IMG/VR virus record: IMGVR_UViG_3300002350_000009
Coordinates: 8,493-32,359 of that record
DNA: 23,867 nt
Reading direction: 5' to 3' (one strand)
Origin: a virus
Under the pieces are notes generated by a model. That model saw only the letters and a list, made by a program, of their open reading frames with translations. It had not been told where the DNA came from and did no database searches. The position numbers and the translations under genes are program-made. Position 1 is the stretch's first letter, and each line of letters opens with the position of its first letter. Of this stretch, positions 7,976 to 23,867 are shown one piece after another.

Positions 7976-8227
7976 ATGAGTAAAGAACCTAATATTTTTG
8001 AAAAAGCTGCCAATTTTGCAAAGGCTGCTGTTAAGCATGTTGCTTCTGGTATGCCAAAAGTTTCAGACGAGCAATTAAAAATTAGGCTTGATGTTTGTGA
8101 CACATGTCCAGAAGTTAATAAAGATAGCCCAAATTGGACATGCACAAAGTGTGGGTGCAACTTGAAGATAAAAGCTAGTTGGGCTACTCAAGATTGCCCC
8201 ATTAAAAAGTGGCCAGCCATTACTTAA
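7976..8227 (+). CDS. Small cysteine-rich zinc-ribbon-like protein (DUF6171-like)
   Basis: This 83-residue protein starts at ATG 7976 after AAGGAGAG. Its C-terminal half has cysteines in a metal-site pattern: CDTC near residue 42, CTKCGC near 60, and a final CP before IKKW. The order C-x2-C ... C-x2-C-x-C-x-L-K-x-K-x3-W-A ... C-P-x3-W is a pattern I associate with small phage and bacterial proteins of the DUF6171 type, whose function is unknown. The N-terminal part (residues 1-35) is an amphipathic helix. It stands alone between the capsid terminator and the giant fibre gene, so it is probably transcribed with the fibre module. Zinc binding is inferred from spacing only. Confidence 0.75.
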   Translation: MSKEPNIFEKAANFAKAAVKHVASGMPKVSDEQLKIRLDVCDTCPEVNKDSPNWTCTKCGCNLKIKASWATQDCPIKKWPAIT

Positions 8228-8261: not shown

Positions 8262-11200
8262 ATGCATTTCCAAAGAAACATAACAAGAATACAAGATCAA
8301 GACGACTTTTCTGGAGTACCAGCCTCTGGACAAGCCGTTTTTTTTGATGGTGAAAATTTTATCACATCAGATCTTCTTGGATCGCAAGGTCAACAGGGTT
8401 TTCAAGGTTCCCAAGGCTTACAAGGAATGATTGGTGTTCAAGGACATCAAGGACAAATGGGTGAACAAGGTCTACAAGGAGATCAAGGTGACCAAGGTAA
8501 TCAAGGGTCTATTGGTGTTGGGCTTACTTTTCGTGGAGCCTATAACCCTAGTTCACAATATTATGTAAATGATGTGGTTACATATGGTGGTTCGTCTTGG
8601 ATTTGCATATCAACTATTGACGGAGTTACCCCTGCGGAAAATAGTTGGTGGACAATTTTTGCTGAAAAAGGAACAAATGGATCACAAGGATCACAAGGAT
8701 TTCAAGGAAGGCAAGGGTTACAAGGTTTACAAGGAAACCAAGGTTTTCAAGGAAGACAAGGGTTTCAAGGTCATCAGGGAGATCAAGGTTGGCAAGGCCA
8801 TCAAGGCTTTCAAGGAAGACAAGGTTTTCAAGGCCATCAGGGAGAACAGGGTGATCAAGGTCATCAAGGGTTTCAAGGAAGACAAGGTTTTCAAGGTGAA
8901 CAGGGCAATCAAGGATCACAGGGAGATCAAGGCGATCAAGGATTGCAAGGTGAACAAGGCTTACAAGGCTTACAAGGCTTACAAGGCTTACAAGGACACC
9001 AAGGCGAACAAGGTTTTCAAGGGGAACAAGGAAATCAAGGTGAACAGGGTTATCAAGGCAATCAGGGTGACCAAGGATCACAGGGTGATCAGGGTTTTCA
9101 AGGTACAACACCTTTAATTTGCACTACGCAAAACACAGGCGAATATTATTTTCAAACAGTTGGTGAAAATTATTATCAAAGTCCTATAGCAACAGGTTTA
9201 TCATTTGGTGCTGGACAAACACTGTCTGTATACGCACCAACTGATAATGTTATACAGTACATGCGAATAACTTCCTATAATCCCACAACAGGGAATATAG
9301 TTGCAGTTGTTACGCATTCTTCAAGTCCTGGATTTAAAACATACGACACTCTTTCAATTTGTCTTGCAGGAAAAGTTGGTGAGCAAGGTAATCAAGGTTA
9401 CCAAGGACAACAAGGAAACCAAGGACATCAAGGGTTTCAAGGAGAACAAGGTTTTCAAGGAAATCAGGGTGATCAAGGTTTACAAGGTCACCAAGGTTTT
9501 CAAGGTGACCAAGGCTTACAAGGCAATCAAGGATTTCAAGGAGAACAGGGCTTTCAAGGTAATCAGGGAGAACAAGGTTTCCAAGGCGAACAAGGTAATC
9601 AGGGAGATCAAGGAGATCAAGGTTCACAAGGATTTCAAGGAGAACAGGGTGATCAGGGTGATCAGGGTTTTCAAGGTGAACAAGGTTTACAAGGAGATCA
9701 AGGATCACAGGGAAATCAAGGCGACCAAGGATCGCAGGGCGACCAAGGATTGCAGGGTGAACAAGGATTTCAAGGAAATCAAGGCGACCAAGGATTTCAA
9801 GGAGAACAAGGTCAACAAGGCTCACAAGGAAATCAGGGTGATCAAGGAGATCAAGGCGACCAAGGTTTTCAAGGAGAACAAGGTGAACAGGGAAATCAAG
9901 GAGATCAAGGTAATCAAGGAGAACAGGGTAATCAAGGATCACAAGGGGAACAAGGTTATCAAGGTTGGCAAGGCGAACAAGGCTCGCAAGGAAATCAGGG
10001 AGATCAAGGCGAGCGTGGAATTGCTGCATTGTCTTGGACATACAAGGTAAATACAACAACTCTTACAGATCTTGATCCTACTAATGACTATATAAGTTTT
10101 AATGCTGATCCTTTTACTTCGGCTACTCAGGTTAAAGTAGATGATAATCCATACGGAATAAATACTACCCTACATGATTTATTTTTAAGTATTCAGAGTG
10201 GTTATTTAACTTTAACCCATCAAGCCAATCCTTCAACATATGTTACTTATCAAATAACTTCTTGCGTAGATGGTACTGCAACAAATGATACTGTAGATGG
10301 AAGTTATGTAATATTTAATGTGACACTAGTTAGTACATACGGAGTAATAAATAACGAAGATTTTGTTACTCTGTCTATTGGTCTTGTTGGTTCGCAAGGC
10401 TATCAGGGTTTTCAAGGGAACCAAGGCTCACAAGGTTATCAAGGATCACAGGGTAATCAAGGATCACAAGGATCACAAGGAAATCAAGGTGACCAAGGTG
10501 ACCAAGGTGATCAAGGAGAACAGGGTTCGCAAGGCGATCAAGGTTCACAAGGAAATCAGGGAGATCAAGGTGGCCAAGGAGAACAAGGTTTTCAAGGTGA
10601 TCAAGGTGAACAGGGTTTCCAAGGTGATCAAGGATCACAAGGAAATCAGGGATTACAAGGTGAACAAGGCAATCAAGGCAATCAAGGCTTTCAAGGTGAA
10701 CAAGGGTTTCAAGGAAATCAAGGTTATCAAGGTTGGCAGGGTGAACAAGGTTCTCAAGGTAATCAAGGATCAGATGCATTATGGAATTTCACAGGTGCTT
10801 ACAGTGGCGGTGCATCGTATGCTATAGGTGATATAGCAACTTATTTAGGGCAAACTTGGTATCGCATTCATTCTAATGGTGGCAATCTTGGGGATACGCC
10901 CTCAGAAGGAACTTTTTGGACATTGATTGCTCAGAAAGGTGACCAAGGTCAACAAGGTTTACAAGGCAATCAGGGTGACCAAGGTTTCCAAGGAGATCAG
11001 GGTTTCCAAGGCAATCAAGGTGATCAAGGATTCCAAGGTGAACAGGGATTACAAGGCGATCAGGGCTATCAAGGGTTTCAAGGAGAACAAGGTTTTCAAG
11101 GTGAACAAGGTAATCAGGGAGATCAAGGATTACAAGGTTTTCAAGGCGAACAAGGCAACCAAGGATTTCAAGGTTTACAAGGATCACAGGGCGATCAAGG

Positions 11201-14200
11201 ATTTCAAGGTGAACAAGGTTTCCAAGGTAATCAGGGCCATCAAGGTTTTCAAGGAGAACAGGGAGAACAAGGGATTCAAGGCCATCAAGGATTCCAAGGT
11301 TATCAAGGTGAACAAGGTATTCAAGGAGATCAGGGTTATCAAGGTTTTCAAGGAGAACAAGGGTTTCAAGGTGAACAAGGATTTCAAGGTGAACAAGGTA
11401 ATCAAGGCGATCAAGGATTCCAAGGAAATCAAGGAGATCAGGGATCACAGGGTGACCAAGGTTATCAGGGTTATCAAGGCGAGCAAGGCTATCAAGGGGA
11501 TCAAGGCTACCAAGGTGTTCAAGGACCAAAGAACACGGAAAACGCTCACACATCTGCTCGTTTAGCAACAACTACCGCCCTTAATAATTCCCCAACTTAC
11601 ACTGCTGGAAGTGCAGATGCATCTAATGGTACTGGCGTTGGTGCTTATATTCAAGCCACTACAAATGGGGCTTTGTCTGTTGATAGTGTTGCTGTAGCTG
11701 TTGGTGATAGAATATTAGTTAAAAATCAATCTGATGCAAGACAGAATGGTATTTATACAGTTGATGCCACTGGTGGACCATCTGCTTTATACAAACTCAT
11801 CAGAGCAACAGACTTTGATAATCATATCGCTGCTCAAGTTGAGTATGGCGATTATCTATTTATAGTAGCTGGAACAGTAAATAATAATACTTCTTCTTTG
11901 CAAAATAGTGTTGGTTCTAATGTAGATGGAAGTATTCGTATTGGAACTGATGATATAACCTTTACACAAGTTGGTGGTATTGGACCACAGGGTTATCAGG
12001 GCGTTACTGGTGCTGGTGGTGCTTTAGGTTATTACGGATCTTTCTATTCTGATTTAACTCAGACTGCTGCTTCAACAGCTACAGCTTATGCGATGACATT
12101 TAACAATACGCCAGATGCTAATGGCGTTTCTATACAATCAAACTCTCAGATTAAAGTTGCTCATCCTGGAACTTATGATCTACAGTTTTCTGCTCAATTA
12201 TATTATTCTGGCGGTGGTGGTAATGGACAAACTGTACAGATTTGGTTTAAATTAAATGGCGTAGATGTTGCTGATTCTGCCACAAAAGTAAATGTTACTT
12301 CAAATAACCCATTTAATGTTGCTGCTTGGGATTATCTTTTTACTACCACATCTGCTAATGAATATATAGAAATAATGTGGAGTACTGATAATACTAATAT
12401 TCAACTTTTAAGGAACACATCTACATCTCCAGCACCAGCTATACCATCAGTAATTGCAACTGTAATGCAAGTGATGTATACACAAGTTGGTCCACAAGGT
12501 AATCAGGGGTTGCAGGGATTGCAGGGGTCACAAGGTAATCAAGGTTTACAAGGTCATCAAGGTTTACAAGGTCTTAAGGGCGATCAAGGATATCAAGGTA
12601 ATCAAGGATTACAAGGTCACCAAGGCATTCAAGGTCATCAGGGCGTTCAAGGATATCAAGGTTATCAAGGGATTTTAGGCGAACAAGGATTTCAAGGTCA
12701 TCAAGGAAATCAAGGTATACAAGGTCATCAGGGCGAACAGGGTTTCCAAGGTCATCAAGGAGAACAGGGCGAACAAGGATTTCAAGGAGAACAGGGTTTT
12801 CAAGGAAATCAAGGTGATCAAGGTGATCAAGGATTTCAAGGGGAACAAGGTCAACAAGGCCATCAAGGCAATCAGGGTGACCAAGGATTTCAAGGGAATC
12901 AAGGAGATCAAGGTTTTCAAGGTGAGCAAGGATTCCAAGGAAATCAAGGAGAACAGGGATTTCAAGGTTTTCAAGGAGATCAGGGAAATCAAGGTTCGCA
13001 GGGTGAACAAGGTTCACAGGGTGATCAAGGATTCCAAGGAGAACATGGAAATCAAGGTGATCAGGGATCACAAGGTGATCAGGGATTACAAGGCGATCAA
13101 GGCAATTATGGAAATCAAGGCGACCAAGGATATCAGGGAGCAACTGGTAGCTTTGGTGGTGTAACAGTTGAATATAAAATAGACACAAATAATTATTTTA
13201 TCAATGATCCAGGCGACAACTACATAAGATTTAACAATGCTTCTCTTGCATCAGCTACGCATGTTATAATTGATGATAATCCAAATAATGCAAACATAGA
13301 TCTTTCTCTATTCTTAGCCACAATCTCTGCTTCAACAAGCACTATGAAAGGTCATTTCAAATTATCTAAGAAAAATGACTCTACAGTATTTGCACTTTAC
13401 ACTATAAGCAATTCCTCAGAACAAGAGCCTAGCTTCTTTGATGTTACAATTTCTTATTTATCTGGAAGTGGCTCGTTTTCTAATGATGATGAAGTATTGC
13501 TCACCTTTGCAAGAACTGGTGATAAGGGTGATACTGGCTATCAGGGATATCAAGGGTATCAGGGAGAACAGGGGCAACAGGGTTATCAAGGCATAAATAG
13601 GGGTGTCTATACTGCAAGTCCAACTGCTCCATTATCGCCAACTGCTGGCGATCTTTGGATAGATACATCAACTGGTATTTTTTACATATATGTTGTAGAT
13701 ACAGATAGTTCACAGTGGGTTCAATTTGTAGGTGCAAAAGGCGAACAAGGATTTCAAGGTGCTGGTTTCCAAGGAAGTCAAGGAACTCAAGGCACACAAG
13801 GCGTACAAGGAAATCAAGGAGAACAAGGTTTTCAAGGTGCTGGTTTTCAAGGTTTTCAAGGAGAACAGGGCGAACAAGGGTTGCAAGGTTTTCAAGGAGA
13901 ACAGGGAGATCAGGGTGGCATAGGATCGCAGGGAGATCAAGGTTATCAGGGTGAACAAGGATACCAAGGACAACAAGGATTTCAAGGAAATCAGGGCTAT
14001 CAGGGAGAACAAGGAAATCAAGGTTATCAAGGATACCAAGGCTATCAGGGAGATGTGCCTTATACTTATACTGGCACATGGTCTGCTTTAACTACCTATG
14101 TTTTAAATGATGCTGCTACTTATCAAGGATCATTGTATCAATTGACCAATGTTGGAAGTTGGTCTTTGGGAGCGACACCTCCAAACAACGGATGGACTTT

Positions 14201-16571
14201 ATTGGTTCAAAAGGGTAATCAAGGAGATCAAGGAAATCAAGGAGAACAAGGTTTTCAAGGAAATCAAGGTTTCCAAGGATACCAAGGAGAACAAGGATAC
14301 CAAGGTGAACAAGGGAACCAAGGCGAACAAGGAAATCAAGGTTATCAAGGATACCAAGGAGATTTGGGTCTTCAAGGATCTCAAGGGGTTCAAGGAGATC
14401 AGGGAGAACAAGGTTATCAAGGCGATCAGGGCTATCAAGGAGAAATTGGCTATCAAGGCGATCAAGGTTATCAAGGAGATCAAGGGGATCAAGGATATCA
14501 AGGCGATCAAGGTTATCAAGGTTTTCAAGGCGAACAAGGTAATCAAGGACTGCAAGGTGATCAAGGATTTCAAGGAAATCAAGGAGAACAAGGAGAACAA
14601 GGCGAACAAGGTAATCAAGGAGAACAAGGTTATCAAGGAATTAGAGGGTATCAAGGATTTCAAGGAGATCAAGGAAATCAAGGTGATCAAGGAGAACAAG
14701 GCGATCAAGGTTTTCAAGGAAACCAAGGTTTTCAAGGAAATCAAGGATACCAAGGAGAGCAAGGTGATCAAGGAAATCAAGGCTATCAAGGCTATCAAGG
14801 CTATCAAGGAACATCTGGTTCTGGCGTAACCATTCAAGGTTCAGAAACATGGGAAAACATATTTAACAATGAAACTGCTGGTGCATCTTTAGGTGATATG
14901 TGGATTGTCACAAATGTAAATCAAGGAACAGCTACTCAGGCATGTCCTAATCCAACTGGTGGCACAGCATCTATAGGCGATGGTTTGATTTATACTGGTT
15001 CATCTCCAGTATATTGGCAGAATGTGAGTCTTGTAAGAGGACCACAAGGATTTCAAGGTATTTTAGGAAGTCAAGGAAGTCAAGGAAGTCAAGGAGTTCA
15101 AGGATCTATTGGATCTCAAGGTAACCAAGGAAATCAAGGTATTCAAGGTTCTGTTGGACCTCAAGGAAACCAAGGCAATCAAGGAAGACAGGGTATAACT
15201 GGATCTCAAGGTTTTCAAGGAAATCAAGGTAATCAAGGATTTCAAGGAACTGTTGGAACGATAGGATCTCAAGGAAATCAAGGCTTACAAGGTGATCAAG
15301 GTTTTCAAGGCAGACAAGGATTTCAAGGAATACTTGGTAATCAAGGCTACCAAGGTAATCAGGGTTTATCTGGTGGTACTGGATCACAGGGATCGGCTGG
15401 AAATAATGGAAATCAAGGTTTTCAAGGCAATCAAGGCAATCAAGGAAACCAAGGTTTTCAATCTAGTGGTTCTGTGACTTCTGTATCATTATCTGCACCA
15501 GCCATATTCAATGTTTCTGGATCGCCAGTTATAAATGCTGGAACTTTCACAGTTACATTTGTAAATCAATCTGGAAATACTGTACTTGCTTCCCCAAATG
15601 GTTCTACTGGTGTTCCATCTTTTAGATCTTTAGTTCCTGCCGATATACCTACGCTTAATCAAAATACTACTGGTGTAGCTACAACAGCAATAAATATTTC
15701 TGGTGGTTCTATAGGTGGTATTCCATATCAATCTGGAACAAGTTCAACAGCAATTTTAGCAGCAGGAACTAGTGATCAAGTTTTAAAATCAAATGGTTCA
15801 TCTGCTCCATCTTGGATAAATCAAAGTTCAATTACTGCTGGTGGTCTATCGACTACTCTTGCTGTTGGTTCTGGTGGAACTGGGCTTACTTCTGCTGGAA
15901 CAAGTGGGAATGTTCTTACAAGCAATGGCTCTACTTGGACTAGCTCGCCAGCAGTTAGCTCGAATCCAACAGGATCAATAATTGCTTTTGCTGGTACTAC
16001 TGCTCCTGCTGGATGGTTATTATGTGATGGTACAAATACTTATTCTAGAACTACTTATGCTGCATTATTTACTGTAATTGGAACAACATATAGTGCAGGA
16101 AATGGTAGCACATTTGGAGTACCAGACTTAAGAGGCAGAACAATAATTGGTGTTGGAACTGGTGTTGGTCTTACGAATAGGGGATTGGCTGTTAAAATAG
16201 GTACAGAAACAGTCACTTTAAATTCATCTCAAATACCAGCACATACTCATCCTAATGCTGTATATGGTGGTAGCACTGGTGGTATGTCTGCTAATCAAGT
16301 GCATTCACACTCTGCGGTTTGGGTTGCTGGAGGTGGTCAAATAGGAAGAGGTGCTTATGGATTTGCTAATCTTGGTGGTGGTTATCAAGGAAGACTTATA
16401 GTGTCTGGTGGTTCAGAGTATGGACAATACTGTACGGTTGGAGATAGTCCTAGCATTGATCATACCCATACATTTACGCCATATATAAGCAATGCCAACA
16501 ATACTGGTGGTGGTTATTCGCATGATAACATGCAACCAAGCATAGCATTAAACTACATAATAAAAACTTAG
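8262..16571 (+). CDS. Giant modular collagen-like tail fibre with C-terminal collar tip
   Basis: A single intact 2769-residue frame; ATG 8262 with GGAG at 8248-8251. Gly-X-Gln triplet blocks (X mostly F, E, N, D, L, Y, S, H) alternate with globular inserts. In residues: short N-terminal anchor 1-39; CBM5/12-like module 87-136; unknown beta insert 281-372; paralogous inserts 586-709 and 1626-1755; second CBM-like 838-892; tail-fibre module 1088-1242 with GDRILVKNQ-type motif; C1q/jelly-roll-like module 1247-1409; GDLWIDTSTG module 1776-1827; third CBM-like 1931-1984; GDMWIV module 2184-2259; Ser/Thr/Gly-rich stalk 2400-2568; tail-collar domain from about 2569 with HTH, HSH and HTH motifs and an end (QPSIALNYIIK) shared with the collar genes downstream. 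No signal peptide is visible, which fits a virion fibre made in the cytoplasm. It is most likely a long receptor- or surface-binding fibre; which tail part it attaches to is unknown. Confidence 0.88.
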   Translation: MHFQRNITRIQDQDDFSGVPASGQAVFFDGENFITSDLLGSQGQQGFQGSQGLQGMIGVQGHQGQMGEQGLQGDQGDQGNQGSIGVGLTFRGAYNPSSQYYVNDVVTYGGSSWICISTIDGVTPAENSWWTIFAEKGTNGSQGSQGFQGRQGLQGLQGNQGFQGRQGFQGHQGDQGWQGHQGFQGRQGFQGHQGEQGDQGHQGFQGRQGFQGEQGNQGSQGDQGDQGLQGEQGLQGLQGLQGLQGHQGEQGFQGEQGNQGEQGYQGNQGDQGSQGDQGFQGTTPLICTTQNTGEYYFQTVGENYYQSPIATGLSFGAGQTLSVYAPTDNVIQYMRITSYNPTTGNIVAVVTHSSSPGFKTYDTLSICLAGKVGEQGNQGYQGQQGNQGHQGFQGEQGFQGNQGDQGLQGHQGFQGDQGLQGNQGFQGEQGFQGNQGEQGFQGEQGNQGDQGDQGSQGFQGEQGDQGDQGFQGEQGLQGDQGSQGNQGDQGSQGDQGLQGEQGFQGNQGDQGFQGEQGQQGSQGNQGDQGDQGDQGFQGEQGEQGNQGDQGNQGEQGNQGSQGEQGYQGWQGEQGSQGNQGDQGERGIAALSWTYKVNTTTLTDLDPTNDYISFNADPFTSATQVKVDDNPYGINTTLHDLFLSIQSGYLTLTHQANPSTYVTYQITSCVDGTATNDTVDGSYVIFNVTLVSTYGVINNEDFVTLSIGLVGSQGYQGFQGNQGSQGYQGSQGNQGSQGSQGNQGDQGDQGDQGEQGSQGDQGSQGNQGDQGGQGEQGFQGDQGEQGFQGDQGSQGNQGLQGEQGNQGNQGFQGEQGFQGNQGYQGWQGEQGSQGNQGSDALWNFTGAYSGGASYAIGDIATYLGQTWYRIHSNGGNLGDTPSEGTFWTLIAQKGDQGQQGLQGNQGDQGFQGDQGFQGNQGDQGFQGEQGLQGDQGYQGFQGEQGFQGEQGNQGDQGLQGFQGEQGNQGFQGLQGSQGDQGFQGEQGFQGNQGHQGFQGEQGEQGIQGHQGFQGYQGEQGIQGDQGYQGFQGEQGFQGEQGFQGEQGNQGDQGFQGNQGDQGSQGDQGYQGYQGEQGYQGDQGYQGVQGPKNTENAHTSARLATTTALNNSPTYTAGSADASNGTGVGAYIQATTNGALSVDSVAVAVGDRILVKNQSDARQNGIYTVDATGGPSALYKLIRATDFDNHIAAQVEYGDYLFIVAGTVNNNTSSLQNSVGSNVDGSIRIGTDDITFTQVGGIGPQGYQGVTGAGGALGYYGSFYSDLTQTAASTATAYAMTFNNTPDANGVSIQSNSQIKVAHPGTYDLQFSAQLYYSGGGGNGQTVQIWFKLNGVDVADSATKVNVTSNNPFNVAAWDYLFTTTSANEYIEIMWSTDNTNIQLLRNTSTSPAPAIPSVIATVMQVMYTQVGPQGNQGLQGLQGSQGNQGLQGHQGLQGLKGDQGYQGNQGLQGHQGIQGHQGVQGYQGYQGILGEQGFQGHQGNQGIQGHQGEQGFQGHQGEQGEQGFQGEQGFQGNQGDQGDQGFQGEQGQQGHQGNQGDQGFQGNQGDQGFQGEQGFQGNQGEQGFQGFQGDQGNQGSQGEQGSQGDQGFQGEHGNQGDQGSQGDQGLQGDQGNYGNQGDQGYQGATGSFGGVTVEYKIDTNNYFINDPGDNYIRFNNASLASATHVIIDDNPNNANIDLSLFLATISASTSTMKGHFKLSKKNDSTVFALYTISNSSEQEPSFFDVTISYLSGSGSFSNDDEVLLTFARTGDKGDTGYQGYQGYQGEQGQQGYQGINRGVYTASPTAPLSPTAGDLWIDTSTGIFYIYVVDTDSSQWVQFVGAKGEQGFQGAGFQGSQGTQGTQGVQGNQGEQGFQGAGFQGFQGEQGEQGLQGFQGEQGDQGGIGSQGDQGYQGEQGYQGQQGFQGNQGYQGEQGNQGYQGYQGYQGDVPYTYTGTWSALTTYVLNDAATYQGSLYQLTNVGSWSLGATPPNNGWTLLVQKGNQGDQGNQGEQGFQGNQGFQGYQGEQGYQGEQGNQGEQGNQGYQGYQGDLGLQGSQGVQGDQGEQGYQGDQGYQGEIGYQGDQGYQGDQGDQGYQGDQGYQGFQGEQGNQGLQGDQGFQGNQGEQGEQGEQGNQGEQGYQGIRGYQGFQGDQGNQGDQGEQGDQGFQGNQGFQGNQGYQGEQGDQGNQGYQGYQGYQGTSGSGVTIQGSETWENIFNNETAGASLGDMWIVTNVNQGTATQACPNPTGGTASIGDGLIYTGSSPVYWQNVSLVRGPQGFQGILGSQGSQGSQGVQGSIGSQGNQGNQGIQGSVGPQGNQGNQGRQGITGSQGFQGNQGNQGFQGTVGTIGSQGNQGLQGDQGFQGRQGFQGILGNQGYQGNQGLSGGTGSQGSAGNNGNQGFQGNQGNQGNQGFQSSGSVTSVSLSAPAIFNVSGSPVINAGTFTVTFVNQSGNTVLASPNGSTGVPSFRSLVPADIPTLNQNTTGVATTAINISGGSIGGIPYQSGTSSTAILAAGTSDQVLKSNGSSAPSWINQSSITAGGLSTTLAVGSGGTGLTSAGTSGNVLTSNGSTWTSSPAVSSNPTGSIIAFAGTTAPAGWLLCDGTNTYSRTTYAALFTVIGTTYSAGNGSTFGVPDLRGRTIIGVGTGVGLTNRGLAVKIGTETVTLNSSQIPAHTHPNAVYGGSTGGMSANQVHSHSAVWVAGGGQIGRGAYGFANLGGGYQGRLIVSGGSEYGQYCTVGDSPSIDHTHTFTPYISNANNTGGGYSHDNMQPSIALNYIIKT
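8520..8668 (+). other. CBM5/12-like module 1 in giant fibre
   Basis: A segment of about 50 residues, with pattern FRGAY ... NDVVTYGGSSW ... P ... WW ... KG, matches the short aromatic chitin/cellulose-binding type (GD/ND-x-V-x-Y-x-G then W). It is followed at once by a new Gly-X-Gln block. Two related copies lie at 10774 and 14053. Carbohydrate binding is inferred. Confidence 0.6.
8955..8990 (+). repeat. Four perfect tandem copies of a 9-base collagen unit
   Basis: CAAGGCTTA is repeated four times without a change and encodes consecutive Gln-Gly-Leu. The surrounding units are scrambled by synonymous changes, so this run looks recently expanded by slippage. Confidence 0.85.
10018..10386 (+). 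other. Beta insert A1 of giant fibre (paralogue of 13138-13524)
   Basis: About 123 residues separate two collagen blocks. They align by eye with the insert at 13138-13524. Shared landmarks are Y-K-[VI]-[ND]-T near the start, N-D-Y-I-S/R-F-N, S-A-T-x-V-x-[VI]-D-D-N-P, a Y-x-I-[TS] strand and a closing V-x-L-[ST]-[IF] before Gly-X-Gln resumes. I do not recognise a named family. Confidence 0.6.
10774..10935 (+). other. CBM5/12-like module 2 in giant fibre
   Basis: About 54 residues with FTGAY ... GDIATYLGQTWYRI ... TPSEGTFWTLIAQKG. The layout is the same as in module 1: aromatic start, G-D-x-A-x-Y-x-G, then Pro and Trp before the next collagen block. Confidence 0.6.
11523..11985 (+). other. Tail-fibre module with GDRILVKNQ motif
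   Basis: This insert of about 154 residues contains ARLATTTAL, then V-D-S-V-A-V-A-V-GDRILVKNQ-x-D-A-R-x-NGIYTV and a [K]LIRATDFD strand. The arrangement occurs widely in phage tail fibres and appendages, where it precedes a receptor-binding part. It is recognised from memory of the pattern. Confidence 0.65.
12000..12485 (+). other. C1q/jelly-roll-like module
   Basis: About 160 residues, beginning GYYGSFYSDLTQTA and including the strands HPGTYDLQFSAQLYYSG, VQIWFKLNGVDV and IEIMWSTDNTNIQLL. The order resembles the C1q/TNF-like jelly-roll found next to collagen segments in animals and in some bacterial and phage collagen-like proteins. It would be a natural trimerisation unit for the collagen-like rods on both sides. 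Confidence 0.5.
13138..13524 (+). other. Beta insert A2 of giant fibre (paralogue of 10018-10386)
   Basis: About 129 residues, sharing landmarks with insert A1 (VEYKIDTN, DNYIRFNNA, ATHVIIDDNP, FALYTIS, DDEVLLTF). Divergence from A1 is large, so the duplication is old. Confidence 0.6.
14053..14212 (+). other. CBM5/12-like module 3 in giant fibre
   Basis: About 53 residues with YTGTWSALTTY, NDAATYQGSLYQL and TPPNNGWTLLVQKG. This is the most divergent of the three copies but keeps the same aromatic and Gly/Pro/Trp landmarks. Confidence 0.55.
15970..16571 (+). other. Phage tail collar domain at giant fibre C-terminus
   Basis: Features are GSIIAFAGTTAPAGWLLCDG, Y-S-R-x-T-Y-A-A-LF-x-VIGTTY, F-x-V-PDLRGR and a QPSIALNYIIK end, with HTH, HSH and HTH motifs. 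This is the same domain as in the three stand-alone genes at 19414, 20109 and 20801. It probably forms the trimeric tip. Confidence 0.85.
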
Positions 16572-16583
16572 GATATATGCAAT

Positions 16584-18968
16584 ATGCCAATAAATTTTCC
16601 TATTAATCCCGATAATAATGACACTTATACATTCGATGGTAAGACATGGGTTTACAACGATACTGGTTGGGTTGGACTAGGTGTTGCTGGACCACAAGGA
16701 TTGCAAGGATTGCAGGGTAATCAAGGTGATCAAGGTTTTCAAGGAATTGTTGGGGAACAAGGATTTCAAGGAAATCAAGGTGATCAAGGATTTCAAGGTG
16801 AACAAGGACAACAGGGCGATCAGGGCAATCAAGGTTTTCAAGGAGAAATAGGTTTAACTGGTTTTCAAGGTTTTCAAGGATATCAAGGAAGTCAAGGGGA
16901 TCAAGGCGATCAAGGCGATCAAGGTGATCAAGGGTCGCAAGGTAACCAAGGAGAACAAGGAGATCAAGGATCGCAGGGTAATCAAGGATTTTATGGAGAT
17001 CAAGGCAATCAGGGCGACCAAGGATATCAAGGCAATCAAGGCAATCAAGGTTATCAGGGAAGTCAAGGAGATCAAGGAAATCAAGGAAACCAAGGAGATC
17101 AAGGAGATGTAGGTTCACAAGGATTTCAAGGCAATCAAGGAGTTGTTGGAGCAACAGGAAATCAAGGCGATCAAGGTTTATCTGGAAGTACTGGAAATCA
17201 AGGCAGACAAGGTTTTCAAGGATCAATAGGGAATCAAGGATTTCAAGGCAGACAGGGTTTTCAAGGTTTAACAGGCAATCAAGGCAATCAAGGTTCTCAA
17301 GGTAGACAAGGTTTTCAAGGTTTAACTGGAACTGGAAATCAAGGCTTTCAAGGCTTTCAAGGATCTCAAGGATATCAAGGATCTCAAGGATCTCAAGGAT
17401 ATCAAGGCTTTAGGGGCTATCAAGGTTATCAAGGCAATCAAGGTAATCAAGGATTTCAAGGAGAACAAGGAGTTCAAGGATCTCAAGGATCTCAAGGATT
17501 TCAAGGTTTTCAAGGAAGACAAGGTTTTCAAGGAATTGTTGGCAATCAAGGCTTTCAAGGAGAACAAGGATATCAAGGAAGACAAGGTTTCCAAGGAAAT
17601 CAGGGGTTACAAGGCATTATTGGAAATCAAGGTAACCAAGGTTTTCAAGGAAGACAAGGTTTTCAAGGTGTAACTGGAACAGGAAACCAAGGAAATCAAG
17701 GAGAACAAGGTTCACAAGGCGAACAAGGAAATCAAGGTAATTATGGTAATCAGGGTGATCAAGGAAATCAAGGTGATCAAGGAAATTATGGATGGCAAGG
17801 TGAACAAGGATTACAAGGAAATCAAGGTGATCAAGGCAACTATGGATGGCAGGGTTATCAAGGAAATCAAGGCGATCAAGGTATGTATGGCTGGCAAGGA
17901 TGGCAAGGGTCACAAGGTGATCAAGGTATGTATGGCTGGCAAGGTTATCAGGGATACCAAGGAGAACAGGGCGACCAAGGTCATCAGGGCAATCAAGGTT
18001 GGCAGGGTGAACAGGGCGATCAAGGGCATCAAGGTTGGCAAGGTCATCAGGGAGATCAGGGATGGCAGGGAGATCAAGGTTACCAAGGCTCGCAAGGTGA
18101 TCAAGGTCAAGGGAATCAAGGAGATCAAGGTTCTCAAGGAAACCAAGGACTACAAGGTTTAACTGGCCCAGTTGCTGGATCAGCAAATCAGGTTGTCTAC
18201 AAAGACGGAAGCAATGCTGCTGCTGGATCTTCAAGCTTTACTTTTAATGGCACAACAGTAACTACTCCAGTGCTTGCTATAAGTCCTACTGTTGGCACAG
18301 GAACACAGCCTTCTTCAGTTACAGTTACTGCTCCTAATCATACTGCTTTGACAGCAGCTACAGAATATAGCGATGTTTTTCTAAATCTTAATAGAACCGT
18401 TCAATTTTCCGCTGGTTTTTTAAGTTCTCAAAGAGCAATAAAAATATCTGCCCCAACTTATAGTGCGGTAAGTGCGAGTACATTTACAAATGCTGCAACA
18501 ATACAGATTGATTCTGCTCCTATTGCTGGAACTAATCTAACTTTAACTAACGCCTATGCACTTCGTGTTCTAACAGGAACCGATGCTGGCGTTGGTATAG
18601 TTATACGAGGCTCTTCTTCTCAGTCAGGAGATCTATTCAGAATACAAAACTTTGGTGAAACTAAGCTACTTTATGTTGATAGTAACTACTCACTATATTT
18701 AGCAAGGTCTTTAAATCTAACTCCTTTTAATACTTCTGCTGGCAATACAAGCGAATTAAGGTTCTATGAACTAGCAGCTAATGGAACAAACTATGTAGGA
18801 TTTAAAGCTGGAGATAATATAGCAAGTAATGTAATATGGACTTTGCCAACTACAGATGGTGCTAATGGTGGAGTAATAATTACTAGTGGTGCTGGCGTAT
18901 TGTCTTGGTCAACCGCCCCATCAGCAGCAAGCAATGTTTTCTTAGCTAACAACTTTGGAGGTTTATAA
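16584..18968 (+). CDS. Second collagen-like tail fibre protein
   Basis: The 794-residue product starts at ATG 16584, 12 bases after the giant gene's stop; AGGA overlaps that stop. Residues 1-35 (NDTYTFDGKTWVYNDTGWVG) resemble the small Trp-rich module seen at the start of many phage fibre segments. Residues 36-527 are Gly-X-Gln repeats with short breaks, such as TGTGNQG twice and GDQGQGNQ near 18107. Arg often fills X in the first half; Tyr and Trp are frequent at the distal end (GMYGWQG, GNYGWQG). Residues 528-794 begin SANQVVYKDGSNAAAG, then FTFNGTTVT, ALRVLTG and NVIWTLPTTDG, a C-terminal pattern common in tail fibres of uncultured phages. No collar domain is present, so the tip differs from that of the giant fibre. 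It is probably a separate or connecting fibre. Confidence 0.85.
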   Translation: MPINFPINPDNNDTYTFDGKTWVYNDTGWVGLGVAGPQGLQGLQGNQGDQGFQGIVGEQGFQGNQGDQGFQGEQGQQGDQGNQGFQGEIGLTGFQGFQGYQGSQGDQGDQGDQGDQGSQGNQGEQGDQGSQGNQGFYGDQGNQGDQGYQGNQGNQGYQGSQGDQGNQGNQGDQGDVGSQGFQGNQGVVGATGNQGDQGLSGSTGNQGRQGFQGSIGNQGFQGRQGFQGLTGNQGNQGSQGRQGFQGLTGTGNQGFQGFQGSQGYQGSQGSQGYQGFRGYQGYQGNQGNQGFQGEQGVQGSQGSQGFQGFQGRQGFQGIVGNQGFQGEQGYQGRQGFQGNQGLQGIIGNQGNQGFQGRQGFQGVTGTGNQGNQGEQGSQGEQGNQGNYGNQGDQGNQGDQGNYGWQGEQGLQGNQGDQGNYGWQGYQGNQGDQGMYGWQGWQGSQGDQGMYGWQGYQGYQGEQGDQGHQGNQGWQGEQGDQGHQGWQGHQGDQGWQGDQGYQGSQGDQGQGNQGDQGSQGNQGLQGLTGPVAGSANQVVYKDGSNAAAGSSSFTFNGTTVTTPVLAISPTVGTGTQPSSVTVTAPNHTALTAATEYSDVFLNLNRTVQFSAGFLSSQRAIKISAPTYSAVSASTFTNAATIQIDSAPIAGTNLTLTNAYALRVLTGTDAGVGIVIRGSSSQSGDLFRIQNFGETKLLYVDSNYSLYLARSLNLTPFNTSAGNTSELRFYELAANGTNYVGFKAGDNIASNVIWTLPTTDGANGGVIITSGAGVLSWSTAPSAASNVFLANNFGGL
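16689..18168 (+). repeat. Gly-X-Gln repeat block of second fibre
   Basis: About 490 residues of almost continuous nine-base units. A higher-order pattern of NQG-x-QGRQGFQG followed by a short T-G or I-G break recurs between about 17190 and 17690. The distal 17740-18100 part is rich in Tyr and Trp at X. Confidence 0.88.
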
Positions 18969-22521: not shown

Positions 22522-23867
22522 ATGCCTAATTGTATTGATCCACTAAGTTTGGGCATTAATCCATCTTATGAAGGTGAGATTTTTCTTTTTGGTGATTGTT
22601 CTTATACGGCAATAGAAAAAGATGGAAGTTTAAATTGGGAAACAAATGAAGAATTAAAGGTTTATGGAGATTTTAGTACATGCACATCATCTTCTTGTAG
22701 TTGGACCTGGAATTTGGGCTACGGAGAACCAGGCTACTTTACATCATGGAGAAAGACATCTTCGTGCCCACAAGATGGCACATGTCTTTGTTCATATGAA
22801 GGATTTCCTAGTTTTAACGGAACGGAAAATCAAGTCGTATCTTATCCTTGTATATACCCAACTACAACTCAAGAACCAACAACTAGTACTTCTTCTACCA
22901 CTAGTACTTCTTCTACCACTGGTACTTCTTCTACCACTGGTACTTCTTCTACCACTGGTACTTCTTCTACCACTGGAACACCACTTACATCAGAACCTCC
23001 AGATCCAACCACACCACAACCCACTACTACTAATACCACTACTACAACTACAACTACTTCAAATCCTTGTGCTCCTGGAGAATGGAATTGTTCTGGATAT
23101 TGTAGACCTAAAGATCGATATAATTGTAGCGGGTGTGGAGATGCATGTTTAGAAGCACCTTTTGAAGATTGTTGTCCTAATCTTACTGGTGGTGGATTAT
23201 CATGCACAGATTTGCTTTCTAACAATAATAATTGTGGTGGTTGTGGAATAATTTGTGCAGAAGGGGAAGTTTGTTGTTATGGAAATTGTATTACATTAGG
23301 AACAAATGAAAACTGTGCATCTTGTGGCGATTCAGTGCCAGAAGGTACGGTCTGTTGCGATCTTAATAATGATGGTATTTATGGATCAATTTCTCTTGAC
23401 TATTGGAATCTAGGAAACCCTGGATCGTCTGATGATAATAATTGTGGATCATGTGGGAATGTGTGTGTTGCACCATATAGATGTAAAGACGGTGTGTGTA
23501 CTGAAACAACAACATGTTTTGGTGGTTGTACTTGGGAATGGTTGGGGCCAGGAGGCTATTGGTATCAACTTAGTGATTGTAACCCATCATGTATTTGTGA
23601 TTCTCCTACTGATGATGGAACTGAGTTTTATGAGTTTTTTGAATCTCCTTGTTATTCTTTTGTAACAACGACTTCAGAACCAACTACAACGACTTCAGCA
23701 CCAACCACAACGACTACAACCGCTAGTCCAACGACAACGACTACTACAACAACAACCGATAGTCCAACGACTACTACGACTACTTCAGCACCGACTACAA
23801 CGACTACAACCGATAGTCCAACGACTACTACGACTACTACGACTACTTCAGCACCGACTACAACGAC
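22522..23867 (+). CDS. Cysteine-rich, Thr/Ser-repeat (mucin-like) protein, 3' partial
   Basis: The frame opens at ATG 22522 (AAGGG at 22511-22515) and is still open at the window edge after 448 codons. Layout in residues: N-terminal part to about 113 with a C-x4-C-x-W-T-W domain; a Thr/Ser linker with five TSTSST/TGTSST units and more Thr/Pro to about 180; a core at 183-378 with about 30 cysteines, including Stig1-like NNNCGGCG, VCCYGNC and NNCGSCGNVC motifs and a second C-x3-C-x-W-x-W domain (C-F-GG-C-T-W-E-W); then a long P-T-T-T array running off the edge. No signal peptide is visible. It resembles extracellular matrix or mucin-like adhesins and probably decorates the virion or a fibre, but no function is established. 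Many disulfides would be unusual for a protein assembled in the cytoplasm. Confidence 0.75.
   Translation, partial: MPNCIDPLSLGINPSYEGEIFLFGDCSYTAIEKDGSLNWETNEELKVYGDFSTCTSSSCSWTWNLGYGEPGYFTSWRKTSSCPQDGTCLCSYEGFPSFNGTENQVVSYPCIYPTTTQEPTTSTSSTTSTSSTTGTSSTTGTSSTTGTSSTTGTPLTSEPPDPTTPQPTTTNTTTTTTTTSNPCAPGEWNCSGYCRPKDRYNCSGCGDACLEAPFEDCCPNLTGGGLSCTDLLSNNNNCGGCGIICAEGEVCCYGNCITLGTNENCASCGDSVPEGTVCCDLNNDGIYGSISLDYWNLGNPGSSDDNNCGSCGNVCVAPYRCKDGVCTETTTCFGGCTWEWLGPGGYWYQLSDCNPSCICDSPTDDGTEFYEFFESPCYSFVTTTSEPTTTTSAPTTTTTTASPTTTTTTTTTDSPTTTTTTSAPTTTTTTDSPTTTTTTTTTSAPTTT
22882..22980 (+). repeat. 18-base Thr/Ser tandem repeat
   Basis: Five copies of ACT-[AG]GT-ACTTCTTCTACC (18 bases, in frame, T-S/G-T-S-S-T) run from 22882 to 22971, followed by a degenerate partial unit. 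The first two copies have AGT and the next three GGT; otherwise they are identical, which implies recent expansion. Confidence 0.9.
23677..23867 (+). repeat. Threonine-rich Pro-Thr repeat array, open at window edge
   Basis: Degenerate ACN-rich units encode runs of Thr broken by SAP, ASP or DSP. A longer unit of about 54-60 bases, with ACCGATAGTCCAACGACTAC near the start and TTCAGCACCGACTACAACGA near the end, is present nearly twice. The array continues past the window, so its length is unknown. Confidence 0.85.

Follow-up and report, generated by a model that had tools for sequence, protein, structure and literature searches.

Modular collagen-like phage fibres and giant collagen-like phage proteins are known and common; one that is linked to the head and shuffled is unusual. 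In SPP1, gp12 is a collagen-like, capsid-bound trimer whose gene lies beside the major capsid gene (PMC6813328, PMC6316719). In E. coli prophages, collagen blocks alternate with non-collagen trimerisation modules in the fibre proteins EPclA-D, and a triple helix was demonstrated for EPclA (PMC3368898). Domain mosaicism in fibres is already known as well (PMC10684548). The large siphovirus phiCbK encodes gp76, a Gly-rich protein of 2799 aa with a lectin-like domain, near its head genes; as a head-module product, gp76 is a candidate for forming the head filament of ~200 nm, and its presence in virions is not confirmed (PMC3556154). In Agrobacterium phage 7-7-1, the virion is tethered to a surface by long flexible capsid fibres before its tail makes contact, and an N-terminal anchor, a shaft and a knob were postulated for these fibres (PMC12796354). 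In these respects each system resembles the fibre predicted here.

We analysed a stretch of DNA of 23,867 nucleotides (the window), part of a 32.4-kb viral contig from a lake phage. It carries one very long collagen-like gene, which starts with ATG and has zero internal stops. The features of the window are listed in Table 1.

Table 1. Features of the giant fibre gene and its neighbours, in window coordinates.
Feature	Position	Strand	Evidence
Major capsid (head) protein, 330 aa	6889..7881	+	weak PHROG major-head matches, E 0.001
Cys-rich small protein, 83 aa, between capsid gene and fibre	7976..8227	+	phrog_13558, E 2e-14
Giant modular collagen-like fibre, 2769 aa, ~287 kDa per chain	8262..16571	+	ORF reading
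N-terminal anchor, residues 1-39, family F2, RIQDQDDFSGVP	8262..8378	+	conserved in complete-start fibres adjoining the capsid gene
Rod, 16 triplets	8379..8522	+	
Module F1, CBM5/12-like, copy 1, residues 88-136	8523..8669	+	PF02839 E 6e-4, sub-cut-off
Rod, 49 triplets	8670..9110	+	
Module F5, residues 284-369, no family match	9111..9368	+	segment clustering, Pfam/PHROG scans
Rod, 73 triplets	9369..10025	+	
Module F0, copy 1, residues 589-706	10026..10379	+	segment clustering
Rod, 44 triplets	10380..10775	+	
Module F1, CBM5/12-like, copy 2, residues 839-892	10776..10937	+	PF02839 E 1e-3, sub-cut-off
Rod, 66 triplets	10938..11531	+	
Module F12, residues 1091-1237	11532..11972	+	PHROG 2647 head decoration E 2.5e-11; PDB 9efk orf22 E 6e-22
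Short rod, 8 triplets	11973..12044	+	
Module F6, C1q/TNF-like jelly roll, residues 1262-1409	12045..12488	+	AlphaFold2 model
Rod, 75 triplets, longest	12489..13163	+	
Module F0, copy 2, residues 1635-1752	13164..13517	+	AlphaFold2 pLDDT 86, pTM 0.81
Short rod, 9 triplets	13518..13598	+	
Module F9, phage-fibre motif, residues 1780-1834	13599..13763	+	PHROG 9729 tail fibre E 3e-7
Rod, 9 + 24 triplets, one phase shift	13764..14057	+	
Module F1, CBM5/12-like, copy 3, residues 1933-1984	14058..14213	+	PF02839 E 1e-4, sub-cut-off
Rod, 68 triplets	14214..14825	+	
Module F3, residues 2189-2259	14826..15038	+	26 copies in fibre family
Rod, 47 triplets	15039..15461	+	
C-terminal tip, phage Collar domain, residues 2401-2769	15462..16571	+	PF07484 E 8e-21
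Second collagen-like fibre, 794 aa, 167 triplets	16584..18968	+	PF01391 E 2e-78
Three tandem Collar-domain proteins, 236, 227 and 227 aa	19390..21484	+	PF07484 E 1e-26, 8e-23, 3e-24

The described systems differ from this gene in several ways. SPP1 gp12 is 64 aa long; it has a single short collagen block and neither modules nor a tip. The EPclA-D proteins carry a lambda-type fibre N-terminus (PfN) and other modules; EPclA has 111 collagen residues, and no member of the family exceeds 322. phiCbK gp76, compared here by published architecture and gene position only, has no described Gly-X-Y pattern. Phage 7-7-1 has a contractile tail and fibres of 88-114 nm with no assigned fibre protein. An earlier note on this DNA had called the design unlike standard single-tip fibres. 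This was too strong, given the E. coli prophage precedents (PMC3368898) and the wide spread of Gly-X-Gln rods.

The protein contains 12 Gly-X-Y runs, a run being at least 5 consecutive triplets, and ten inserts of 49-148 aa; its N-terminal segment has 39 aa and its C-terminal part 369 aa. The rods alternating with globular modules that the earlier note had read from the sequence were thus found again, and so was its collar tip, as the Pfam Collar domain lies near the C-terminus. With phmmer, the tip also matched a long tail fibre (PDB 8kec, E 8e-9) and T4 gp12 (1ocy, E 0.003).

The three copies of F1 scored 19.6-22.6 bits with PF02839, below the curated cut-off of 26.2, and hence are called CBM5/12-like only. 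The best PDB matches of F6 were the BclA C-terminal domain, ExsFA and 4-1BBL (E ~1e-6). In Foldseek, the moderately confident model of F6 was closest to the BclA C-terminal domain of Bacillus (E 3e-7, TM-score by target 0.71), which makes F6 a C1q/TNF-like jelly roll. Only the F6 fold was used from the joint AlphaFold2 model of F12 and F6, because its F12 half was poor (mean pLDDT 61). By its sequence matches, F12 appears related to phage virion and head-decoration modules. F0 is the commonest module in the fibre family. Its model gave zero fold matches in the PDB below E 0.04, and the same fold was found in proteins with a collagen triple helix repeat annotation from unrelated viruses, namely uncultured Caudovirales and giant viruses (Marseillevirus LCMAC102, Indivirus, Klosneuvirus), with TM-scores of 0.83-0.96 by query. 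The models suggest that the F0 fold is a fibre module common to phages and giant viruses. Binding along the rod by the CBM5/12-like and C1q/TNF-like modules is plausible; the modules may be trimer clamps instead of binders.

We consider it fairly probable that the gene encodes a giant trimeric fibre whose first 39 residues attach it to the capsid and which extends Gly-X-Gln rods and modules outward to a Collar tip. The earlier note had named no attachment point; the head is indicated by the position of the gene and by the N-terminus, which is strictly linked to the capsid protein. Complete in-frame fibre starts of the group read MHF.....RIQDQDDF.G(V/I)P.SG, with one exception (L055). A DNA pattern search for RIQDQDDF matched 74 viral stretches, and in 52 of them the motif begins a collagen-like ORF. 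The same capsid-protein family was encoded upstream of the RIQDQDDFSGVP anchor in all contigs with enough upstream sequence (66/66); the remaining 8 matches comprised 6 that were too short upstream and 2 chance matches. The anchor is therefore encoded and co-inherited with the major capsid protein wherever there is room to see it.

In a sister group, whose capsid protein is ~70% identical, the anchor heads a stand-alone protein of 88 aa, and its gene starts 115-414 bp after the capsid gene. This small protein ends in DGGNW. Several giant fibres end in IDGGSF, DIDGGAF or VDVDGGTW, and in the window phage the DGGNW-like ending is replaced by the Collar tip. From these similar ends, it looks as if the giant fibre arose by insertion of rods and modules into a small capsid-associated protein. 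In L055 and L343 the anchor forms a separate 35-aa frame ahead of a 2845-aa fibre, which is either an assembly error, a frameshift or stop, or a sign that the fusion is not essential. We found no description of a capsid-linked anchor with a minimal form in the open-access literature. In another relative, with a capsid gene 70% identical, the position behind this gene is filled by a 1095-aa non-collagen repetitive protein of the SVSNFPAATTVVGVSGIPTVQG type (L084:11092-14379).

We found 61 loci related to the capsid protein, which itself is remotely similar to the major head protein of Bacillus phage G (22% identity, E 2e-4). Named phages gave no close relative for the capsid protein, and the best terminase match had 28% identity. 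Upstream of the fibre gene lie genes for a terminase, a putative portal, a cement-like protein, the capsid protein and the Cys-rich 83-aa protein, whose position is kept in near relatives. The second collagen-like fibre, a 148-aa protein, the three Collar proteins and a Thr-rich protein follow downstream. In longer relative contigs the order is capsid protein, small gene, fibre 1, fibre 2, collar proteins, neck and tape measure, the neck genes being assigned by position only. The three Collar paralogues just downstream of both fibres are kept in relatives and are possibly exchangeable tips.

The tape-measure genes encode 4984 aa in G006, the contig with the identical fibre, 4941 aa in G004, 4694 aa in G001 and 3976 aa in G002; the match was scored on the G001 copy, and the others were assigned by length, position and similar start. 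With the conversion of 0.15 nm per residue used by the phiCbK authors (PMC3556154), the predicted tail measures ~600-750 nm, with ~750 nm for 4984 aa. A search for a sheath gene gave zero matches in nine contigs, all of them fragments, and on these a contractile tail was rejected. Thus the phage is likely a long-tailed, sheathless siphovirus. Gemmataceae were considered as the host and rejected, since the sole genome-collection match, the L084 contig in a Gemmataceae MAG bin, was too weak.

The fibre could instead be a long side or tip fibre of the tail, with the Collar tip binding the receptor at the end of a shaft of rods and modules and the gene merely sitting in the head region. For these uncultured phages, the position of a gene does not prove where its product sits on the virion, and databases label Collar and several of the modules as tail fibre, with PHROG tail-fibre matches for F1 and F9. 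F0 occurs in a putative tail fibre of pelagiphage HTVC010P, and in Pseudomonas jumbo phages the tail-fibre proteins contain a motif weakly similar to the anchor (E 0.003-0.01). We nevertheless judge a tail fibre unlikely, if worth serious consideration. The anchor is strictly linked to one capsid-protein family and its 88-aa stand-alone form adjoins the capsid gene, ~18-24 kb of DNA separate the fibre gene in the head module from the tape-measure and tail-tip genes downstream, and F12 matches a head-decoration PHROG. A capsid-anchored fibre is most likely on this evidence.

The 12 runs comprise 488 triplets or 1464 residues, and range from 8 to 75 triplets, three of them being short (8-9 triplets). 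When the protein was shuffled 1000 times, the versions reached at most 30 triplets in total and a run of 11, which rules out a chance repeat. Gly therefore occupies each third residue over long runs well above chance, as in a collagen repeat. The composition of the triplets is peculiar. Gln is at Y in 441 of the 488 (90%), and X is chiefly Asn, Phe, Asp, Glu, Tyr or Ser. Pro makes up ~1% of X and 0 of Y, aromatics make up 25% of X, and Lys and Arg 2.5%. In IMG/VR, 25 perfect Gly-X-Gln triplets in a row were found in at least 120 stretches. Among the 80 such stretches examined, 10 had the rods in open frames of at least 2000 aa, the longest frame having 3533 aa. We found no publication on Gly-X-Gln phage collagens in the open-access literature.

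A triple helix is not assured with this composition, since Pro is at 1%, Lys and Arg are almost absent and a quarter of X is aromatic, unlike in proven phage collagens. The E. coli prophage collagens are Pro- and charge-rich, with about half Pro at X, and aromatic-free (PMC3368898). Pfam and PHROG scans of the inserts and tip found no EPclP-type lambda fibre modules, and with its 1% Pro the window fibre falls outside that family. The Gly-X-Gln blocks might then be flexible or otherwise folded linkers, and the protein a compact or floppy string far below 400 nm with any attachment site. We regard such linkers as rather unlikely. Gly is kept strictly at every third residue for up to 75 triplets, and PF01391 exceeded its curated cut-off in the identical fibre gene of G006. 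Selection is also seen inside the rods, where the window gene and its relative L009 differ at 20, 15 and 91 sites of codon positions 1, 2 and 3, with indels in frame. Furthermore, the C1q/TNF-like and Collar neighbours of the rods are trimeric in other proteins. The arithmetic behind the ~400 nm of the earlier note stood (1464 x 0.29 nm = 425 nm), but this length presumes that all triplets are triple-helical and is an upper bound, because the rods are nearly proline-free and aromatic-rich.

Attachment at the head-tail junction, as a neck or collar-whisker fibre, would explain why the gene lies between the capsid and neck genes, and Collar proteins are encoded directly downstream of it. The linkage is to the capsid protein, no adjoining neck component was identified and nothing positively distinguishes such a fibre, and we consider it improbable.

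An artefact, whether from chimerism or misassembly of a repeat-rich contig or from a frame that is not translated, was ruled out and is hardly credible: misassembly is frequent for repeat-rich genes and the lengths of the relatives differ widely, but the 8.3-kb gene was found base for base in the independent assemblies L008, L058 and L063 and its differences from L009 are biased by codon position. L006 differed from the window by 1 base over 11.9 kb, and L007 was identical to the gene as far as its contig reaches. Over the distal 1234 codons, the window gene and L009 differ at 45, 36 and 194 sites of codon positions 1, 2 and 3, and all indels are of 3 nt. This bias, its recurrence in the rods and the 3-nt indels mean that the frame has been selected as protein. 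The single intact 8.3-kb gene of 2769 residues claimed by the earlier note was therefore confirmed at the sequence level, as an intact, constrained gene whose product is a very long string of beads and rods with a collar tip.

On the preferred reading of a capsid-anchored fibre, the N-terminal 39 residues would fix the trimer to the capsid, and the rods would supply reach, up to ~0.4 µm if fully helical. The inserted domains would hold the three chains in register. The CBM5/12-like, C1q/TNF-like and Collar domains are probable binders of surface glycans or particles and could tether the virion to a cell or particle ahead of tail engagement. Rods and modules would be gained, lost and swapped among lineages by recombination in rod DNA, with the anchor kept.

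We compared the fibres of related phages. The loci with the capsid protein contained 45 distinct collagen-like ORFs with 256 non-rod segments, which fell into about 20 recurrent module families and five singletons. The same modules recur across fibres in varying order and number, and complete fibres range from ~690 to 2800 aa. Pairs of phages with 73-75% DNA identity in the capsid gene shared copies of F0, F1, F5 and F12 at 86-99% identity. At fourfold sites in the same pairs, the modules were 77-96% identical, compared with 52-57% for the capsid gene. In 81 divergent pairs the best module had a median identity of 85% and the whole capsid gene 54%. The bias from taking the best of many was checked with the best windows of the capsid gene: the best 45-site window had a median of 67% in divergent pairs. 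A module was shared at 80% or more in 49 of the 81 pairs. A 25-site capsid window reached 80% or more in 16 of 82 pairs, and the excess therefore rests on the medians and on the longer modules, not on every pair. Conversely, L013 has a 98% identical capsid gene, yet is without most of these modules.

Since module identity is far above that of the capsid gene, modules have been exchanged between phages. The high-identity blocks start and stop inside rods, and repeated 18-mers account for 19% of all 18-mers in the rods but 0.2% of those in the modules. The simplest explanation of the exchange would be recombination inside the repetitive rod DNA. We found no description of bead exchange at such a scale in the open-access literature. 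By bead exchange, the virus surface would be rebuilt module by module, with the capsid gene staying put.

A more far-reaching reading is put forward tentatively. The fibre could be a capsid-anchored adhesion string of up to ~0.4 µm whose beads bind along its length, grown by insertions into the 88-aa protein and re-edited by bead exchange; it would be a modular tether and not a single-tip fibre, built on a nearly proline-free Gly-X-Gln helix of novel composition. The Gly-X-Gln rods, widespread in environmental viruses, pose a question in collagen chemistry. The head filaments of phiCbK and 7-7-1 are visible by microscopy but their proteins are unassigned or unproven. Here a candidate class emerges from the sequence: its anchor is recognisable and linked to the capsid gene, its minimal form has 88 aa, and it varies naturally in length.

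Other proteins of the structural region were also observed. Thr-run, mucin-like and Cys-rich proteins are encoded at 22522-23865 of the window, by a 1090-aa ORF of G006 and by 1081- and 1202-aa ORFs of G001, with a weak STIG1 match. A family-2 glycosyltransferase lies within the structural module of one relative (L078:12854-14641), and a GDP-mannose 4,6-dehydratase lies directly upstream of the terminase in another (L005:6712-7761). Given these two enzymes, the virion proteins might be glycosylated.
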